DNA of 45,226 nt, from assembly GCA_001817425.1 (NCBI GenBank), contig MHII01000032.1, positions 1 to 45,226 of the forward strand. The letters run 5' to 3'. A program made the position numbers and the translations under genes. Below the pieces are notes generated by a model. The model saw nothing but the letters and a program-made list of their open reading frames with translations. It was not told the origin of the DNA and ran no database searches. Numbering within the stretch: the stretch's first letter is position 1; every line of letters begins with the position of its first letter. The DNA is from Candidatus Buchananbacteria bacterium RIFCSPHIGHO2_02_FULL_39_17. GTDB taxonomy: Bacteria > Patescibacteriota > Patescibacteriia > Buchananbacterales > UBA6539. Shown here one piece after another: positions 5,632 through 6,513 of the stretch.

Positions 5632-6513
5632 ATGTCCGATATTATTTTAAAACAAGTCAAAGATATTTGCCGTGCCTATAATCTTTTACTTTCTCGCCAG
5701 AAGGGCCAGAATTTTTTGATTAATCAAAAAATCATTGAAAAAATTATTGCCGTGGCTGATTTGAAACCAGACGATACGGTTTTGGAAGTTGGTCCGGGTT
5801 TAGGGATTTTGACCGAGGGATTGATAAAAAAAGCGAAAAAAGTTATTAGCGTTGAATTGGATGCCAAACTCTATAATTTTTTAAAAGCCAAATTCGCCGG
5901 CGCTAAAAATTTAGAATTAATCAATCAAGACATTTTAAAATCTCAAATCCTCTCCGCCAGAGGCGGATCCGCCTTGGGCGGAAAATCTCAAAATTATAAG
6001 ATCGTGGCTAATCTTCCCTACAACATTACCTCCAATTTTTTGAAAAAATTTTTAACCAGCGAGGCTCGGCCAGAGGCCATGACGCTTTTAGTCCAAAAAG
6101 AAGTGGCGCAAAGAATCTGCGCCCGGCCTAAAAAAATGAGCTTATTGGCGGTTTCAATTCAGCTTTATGGCGAGCCGATGATCATTGAATATGTGGATAA
6201 AAATAATTTTTGGCCAAAGCCAGAAGTTGATTCAGCCATTTTAAAGATATCAGACATCAGGGACCAGAAATCAGTGGATAAATTTTTTGGCAAAGAGGTG
6301 ATTGAGAAAAATTTTTGGCAACTTTTGCATATTGGCTTTTCTGCTAAAAGAAAACAGCTCCAAAATAACCTAGCCAATGGTCTGAAAATTGACCATCAAG
6401 CGGCCAAAAGATTTCTTCAAATGTCTAATTTAAGCCCTTTAATTCGCCCCCAAGATCTATCTTTGGCTAATTGGCTTACCCTTGCCAAAAAACTGAATTT
6501 TTATCTTAATTAA
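5632..6513 (+). CDS. rsmA: 16S rRNA dimethyladenosine transferase RsmA/KsgA; start set at ATG 5632 rather than the ORF-track start 5590
   Basis: SRQKGQNFLIN, VLEVGPGLGILTEGL, IVANLPYNITSNFLKK. Confidence 0.93.
   Translation: MSDIILKQVKDICRAYNLLLSRQKGQNFLINQKIIEKIIAVADLKPDDTVLEVGPGLGILTEGLIKKAKKVISVELDAKLYNFLKAKFAGAKNLELINQDILKSQILSARGGSALGGKSQNYKIVANLPYNITSNFLKKFLTSEARPEAMTLLVQKEVAQRICARPKKMSLLAVSIQLYGEPMIIEYVDKNNFWPKPEVDSAILKISDIRDQKSVDKFFGKEVIEKNFWQLLHIGFSAKRKQLQNNLANGLKIDHQAAKRFLQMSNLSPLIRPQDLSLANWLTLAKKLNFYLN
5941..5994 (+). repeat. In-frame palindromic insertion in rsmA (18 codons, SQILSARGGSALGGKSQN)
   Basis: TCTCAAAT...CCGCCAGAGGCGGATCCGCCTTGGGCGG...TCTCAAAAT; homologous insertion in radA. 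Confidence 0.9.

Follow-up and report, generated by a model that had tools for sequence, protein, structure and literature searches.

The window analysed here, the complete contig C32 (45,226 nt) of a 1.14 Mb genome of Patescibacteria lineage, carries copies of a small palindromic DNA element within two unrelated conserved genes, rsmA and radA. The anatomy of these and other copies makes it very likely that this is a dispersed 30-bp twin-hairpin element residing in frame within genes, a reading that leaves aside whatever mobilises it. An earlier note on this DNA had proposed a mobile or duplicated element that stays translatable, and this stands: the element is dispersed and in frame in unrelated conserved genes, and close relatives lack the intact motif.

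The inserts in rsmA and radA

The gene for 16S rRNA dimethyltransferase A, rsmA, occupies positions 5632..6513 of the plus strand and matches PF00398, and radA/sms lies on the minus strand at 35543..36901; the nearest named homologs of both products include proteins labelled Candidatus Buchananbacteria. The earlier note described a 54-bp stretch in each gene, corresponding to residues 104-121 of RsmA and to residues 36-53 of RadA, between zinc finger and ATPase domain. Its coordinates and reading frame are correct, as is the match of the two peptides at 16 of 18 residues. Both stretches consist of TCTCAAAT(C/T)CTC, a 30-bp element and AAATCTCAAAAT (12 + 30 + 12 bp). In rsmA the element (TCCGCCAGAGGCGGATCCGCCTTGGGCGGA, 5953..5982, plus strand, translated SARGGSALGG) has TCTCAAATCCTC on its left (5941..5952, plus) and AAATCTCAAAAT on its right (5983..5994, plus), and in radA the element (TCTGCCCAAGGCGGATCCGCCTCTGGCGGA, 36755..36784, minus strand, translated SAQGGSASGG) has TCTCAAATTCTC upstream (36785..36796, minus) and AAATCTCAAAAT downstream (36743..36754, minus). 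The flanks around both elements belong to an AT-rich 7-mer repeat, AAATCTC. The radA element is the reverse complement of the rsmA element with one base different, and the two are therefore oppositely oriented in their genes, whereas the flanking 7-mer repeats run in the same direction in both; over 59 bp (5937-5995 vs. 36742-36800) the loci are 90% identical. When exactly the 30 nt are deleted from either gene, the frame is kept with no stop and both proteins read K-SQILKSQN; the common 18-residue peptide thus divides into 8 residues of 7-mer array and 10 of palindrome. The 54 bp are not borne out as a unit, since same-genus empty sites in other Patescibacteria correspond to an insertion of exactly 30 nt; the outer 24 bp of each stretch are part of a separate 7-mer repeat system. 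A third copy in the window, with one core mismatch and no strand assigned, is intergenic and lies just upstream of the rsmA ATG (5539..5568), within a longer AT-rich inverted repeat.

Searching the genome for the peptide, as the earlier note had suggested, gave a third occurrence on contig C12, in intergenic DNA, where 61 bp are identical to the rsmA copy. Further copies are found in a CCA tRNA nucleotidyltransferase gene, a murE-like gene and intergenic DNA. For the twin core, 12-14 matches were counted in this genome, vs. 0 for a reversed-pattern control; this rules out a chance origin. Identity at a lag of 7 nt reaches 0.38 in the intergenic AT-rich DNA of the window, vs. a background of ~0.28, which amounts to a strong periodicity. 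In this genome the element lies within AAATCTC 7-mer arrays, which supply the remainder of the 18-residue peptide. AT-rich 7-mer tandem repeats (AAATCTC, TCAAAAT) occupy most intergenic gaps of the window, and 7-mer repeats also run in frame through leuS (1754-1826, 1896-1936 and 2426-2480), giving KSQISNL-type sequence in LeuS. The window holds two other duplications: a 123-bp repeat, 98% identical between 17663-17785 and 43975-44097, 26 kb apart, one copy of which overlaps the start of a small ORF (17741-18139), and an 84-bp duplication (98%; 30445-30528 and 30816-30899) with GC-rich palindromic content.

As regards the host proteins, both inserts fall in low-confidence loops of AlphaFold models and are predicted to be disordered. 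The RsmA insert (104-121) is in a loop with pLDDT <50 at residues 109-112, in a model with a mean of 91.5, and that of RadA (36-53) overlaps a low-confidence stretch (39-56) in the linker between zinc finger and ATPase domain. Alignment to relatives showed that the nearest homologs from other species (RsmA, 66% identity; RadA, 77%) lack the intact motif. Linker length varies among relatives at both insert sites, and because each site is a linker of already variable length, RsmA and RadA have on balance gained fewer than 18 residues. In the closest family relative of rsmA, the same place is occupied by a 7-mer array of its own (GCTATAA/GCTAAAA), and the 77% identical RadA homolog P0122 carries what looks like a decayed copy, STRDGSAFGGKSQ. 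Other, unrelated extra segments are present at the same linker in the RsmA homologs P0003, P0027 and P0032; this linker is either a tolerant site or a hotspot.

Exact insertion, twin hairpins and a single reading frame

Joining the flanks of copies and searching for them in same-genus genomes revealed clean empty sites in three genes, which, reading their names from sequence, we take to be ornithine-carbamoyltransferase-like (L316), MiaB-like (L330, two sisters) and DnaJ-like (L331, two sisters). In all five comparisons the gained DNA is T-core-A, exactly 30 nt, and there is no target-site duplication in any of the five; ten whole codons are therefore added, and the frame is never shifted. The junction alignments for the flanks of L332 and L311 were not clean and are left out of this count, and the empty sites come from genes other than rsmA and radA, for which the same-genus genomes gave none. 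Alignments to solved structures show a gap of exactly 10 residues in TsaD and in L4, and gaps of 12 residues in GyrB and about 8 in RpoB, where both loops are more variable. Elements are flanked by T at -1 (98%) and A at +1 (98%), with TTT and AAA beyond, so that the preferred target is the boundary between T-rich and A-rich DNA, with the consensus TTT^AAA.

Direct 7-mer repeats surround 13 of 120 copies vs. 1.1 expected, and these could be read instead as a 7-bp duplication. We rejected a classical MITE with such a duplication, since the periodicity of 7 nt, together with the empty sites, indicates that copies entered 7-mer arrays that were already in place; the element shares terminal inverted repeats with MITEs (TCCGCC...GGCGGA ends) but lacks their target-site duplication. 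In two cases (L317/L345 and L318/L351) sister genomes share an insertion, and the element is 29/30 identical while the surrounding DNA, synonymous sites included, is only ~72-82% identical (matched regions: roughly 78-82% for L317, which we recognise as atpA, and 72% for L318). The element identity in these shared insertions may reflect structural constraint, conversion or recent replacement.

The 30 bp form two adjacent 15-nt hairpins, TCCGCCnnnGGCGGA-TCCGCCnnnGGCGGA, that is, TCCGCC-nnn-GGCGGA twice. Two mismatches are present in 24 copies; in 14 of these the changes are compensatory within one small hairpin (~0.35 expected by chance), and none has compensatory changes in the large palindrome. 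Compensatory changes thus maintain the two small hairpins. The predicted fold is either a pair of small hairpins or a single large one, according to the loops, and perfect copies favour the large hairpin. The spacing of successive hairpins is always 15 nt. A single 15-nt hairpin as the unit was rejected, given 121 dimers vs. 15 singles, several of the latter being visibly decayed dimers.

Among the matches listed, 66 of 123 deduplicated copies lie within ORFs of at least 150 aa and 40 are in Pfam-supported genes. The Pfam-supported hosts include DnaG, PheT, UvrB, Mfd, DnaE, RpoB, GyrB and ribosomal protein L4, as well as CysS, ArgS, TsaD, PNPase, RsmH and DnaJ; two DnaJ genes have two copies each, one of which is decayed. 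Nearly all share one frame: 38 of the 40 copies in Pfam-supported genes among these matches are read as SAxGGSAxGG, with the element placed between codons, and other frames (PPxADPPxAD, Arg-rich) are rare even when target preference is allowed for. A target model built from copies outside ORFs predicts 47% in the SAxGG phase, and the excess is significant after this correction (p = 1e-10). The preceding residue is most often F and the following one most often K, corresponding to TTT^AAA. We infer that the one-frame bias reflects selection, with the SAxGG frame providing a flexible Gly/Ser/Ala linker that would be tolerated in loops of conserved proteins.

Spread across phyla and the insert in AtpA

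The exact core CCGCCnnnGGCGGATCCGCCnnnGGCGG, searched against GTDB genomes with one genome per species, is present in at least 119 stretches. Carriers among the matches listed comprise many Patescibacteria lineages, Omnitrophota, Kiritimatiellota, Ignavibacteriota, Zixibacteria, Verrucomicrobiota, Lentisphaerota, Margulisbacteria and others. Of 196 relatives, roughly one genome in two carries copies, and a control pattern gave 1 match. Contamination of individual MAGs may account for some of the cross-phylum copies. For Ignavibacteriota this is countered by the inspected copies, which interrupt what are presumably typical type IX sorting-domain motifs (YPNPF^NPST and SGVYFY contexts). A 36-mer query gave no match in the phage and plasmid collections. 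At one locus (L325, G066:C3:44956-45119) the twin hairpin is repeated in tandem, three copies with a period of 68 bp, in a short ORF; these copies are probably intergenic.

Among 120 AtpA homologs, the segment that receives the insert is 30 residues long in 105; nine have exactly 40 residues there and two have 41. Carriers with a recognisable motif are scattered in a quick tree, with a minimum of 6 changes, and a single carrier clade is rejected by the AU test on that tree (p = 0.0009). This pattern could be due to repeated hits at the same codon junction, to horizontal transfer of the insert or to frequent loss. Two AtpA homologs, P0308 and P0309, have a different insert at this junction, TEKTQNGTEKTQIK, which resembles a translated 7-mer array.

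Possible routes of spread and comparison with known systems

How might such an element move? Insertion is of exactly 30 nt, without target duplication, preferentially at a junction of T-rich and A-rich DNA, and the hairpins would be recognised on single-stranded DNA by a trans-acting enzyme of the HUH/Y1 type or similar. IS200/IS605 insertions likewise involve hairpin recognition and a short T-rich target, and they generate no target duplication. By analogy with these elements, single-strand hairpin recognition by such an enzyme is a possibility to which we give somewhat less than even weight. A wider proposal, which we regard as falling just short of an even call, is that this is a cross-phylum mobile element in which 30 nt, zero duplication and a flexible GGSA linker combine to make insertion intrinsically frame-preserving and nearly neutral; it would be adapted to essential genes, depend on a hairpin-recognising mobiliser and hit identical codon junctions repeatedly.

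The best-surviving alternative dispenses with a transposition enzyme altogether: replication slippage, template switching and gene conversion, with DNA uptake as an aid, would account for the spread of both the palindromes and the 7-mer arrays. AT-rich 7-mer arrays do expand at the same places, as the intergenic periodicity indicates, the C12 and rsmA copies have 61 bp in common including flanks, and the two shared insertions, 29/30 identical in surroundings of roughly 82% and 72%, are what conversion would give. However, slippage alone would hardly yield exact 30-nt gains with fixed ends at non-repetitive sites, or one sequence in many phyla, and we consider this route rather unlikely.

Less probable still, and in our view distinctly unlikely, is an element of REP/REPIN type, i.e. 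small palindromes mobilised by RAYT tyrosine transposases with the hairpin pair as a REPIN-like unit. The 30-bp size and paired hairpins would fit, and GTAG/CGTC REPs can also be intragenic (PMC3733652). Genomes with more Y1 transposase genes tend weakly to have more copies (rho 0.24, p 6e-4, with no correction for phylogeny or mobile load). Nevertheless, the GTAG/CGTC tag is absent, the flanks being T and A, and nine genomes with at least 5 copies, including those with 18, 12 and 11, have no Y1 match. Three of 20 Y1 loci have a similar-shaped hairpin within 1.5 kb, and only one of the three has the family stem; no such hairpin lies within 1.5 kb of the sole Y1 gene of the source genome (C23:88549). 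Local linkage is not clear, and a RAYT/Y1 enzyme is not convincing as mobiliser. In addition, REPINs contain a spacer between their hairpins, whereas the inter-hairpin distance is fixed at 15 nt here.

An RNA- or reverse-transcription-mediated small repeat, similar to the SDRs of Nostoc, is equally improbable. The element is similar in size, its hairpins covary and it lies within 7-mer arrays both here and in several further phyla, and there are eight RVT_1 (reverse transcriptase) matches in the source genome, one of them a gene at the start of the contig (window 2-1021). Many relatives have one to five such matches and some carriers have none. Against this, no significant correlation was obtained between the number of reverse transcriptases and copy number (rho 0.13, p 0.07), and this enzyme is unconvincing as mobiliser. 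Finally, an ancestral origin of the segment in RsmA and RadA, or a separate origin in each protein, can be dismissed almost with certainty: both sites are length-variable linkers, but unrelated genes share the 59-bp match at 90%, identical DNA is intergenic on C12, the intact motif is missing from the closest out-of-species homologs, and other genes have empty sites.

Protein-coding palindromes have so far been discussed mainly for Rickettsia, and the smaller, cleaner version seen here is found repeatedly in Patescibacteria and in other phyla, in hosts that include RpoB, GyrB, DNA polymerase III, AtpA, ribosomal protein L4 and tRNA synthetases. The copies amount to a large number of naturally performed linker insertions into essential proteins, and with them it can be tested directly how a mobile element persists in streamlined genomes with little intergenic room. 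The defined 30-mer can serve as a probe for the mobilising enzyme. For annotation, they are a warning that SAxGGSAxGG stretches do not belong to the host protein families. The literature searched, to which subscription papers and preprints did not belong, gave no earlier description of the 30-bp element.

The earlier note had named the Rickettsia palindromic elements (RPEs) as the closest precedent. This holds for behaviour, as RPEs are also palindromic, dispersed and present both in frame in conserved protein genes and between genes (PMC2229807, PMC10969869), and an RPE-bearing Gmk is reported to be active (PMC2229807). It does not hold for identity: RPEs are 105-146 bp and Rickettsia-specific (PMC2229807), whereas the present element has 30 bp, is a strict hairpin dimer found in many phyla, inserts as exactly 30 nt of whole codons and yields a Gly/Ser/Ala linker. 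RPE membership was rejected on size and on host range (taken as Rickettsia, with relatives in Wolbachia), a separation that is based on RPE descriptions rather than sequences. GTAG-/CGTC-tagged REPs, which include RPE-4 and RPE-6 inside R. conorii genes, are palindromes of 20-40 bp with a short stem and loop, a description that suits the element too; they are frequently dimeric, occur in many phyla and are in some cases inside DNA repair and other genes (PMC3733652). The element differs from them in having no tag, a fixed 15-nt spacing and no firm transposase link, and in being about half intragenic with nearly all of those copies in one frame. With IS200/IS605 it has in common hairpins, a short T-rich target and the absence of target-site duplication, but no autonomous element with these hairpins was found and some copy-rich genomes are without Y1 genes. 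The nearest anatomical parallel is provided by the Nostoc SDRs, which are likewise very small. Described by Elhai and colleagues in 2008, these cyanobacterial repeats (SDR1-8) reportedly measure 21-27 nt, vs. 30 nt here, undergo compensatory hairpin changes and often lie within heptameric tandem repeats; in-frame insertion into conserved proteins as a rule is, to our knowledge, particular to the present element. In function, then, the element resembles the RPEs and the intragenic REPs, and its size, the lack of tag and duplication, and its host range place it outside both.
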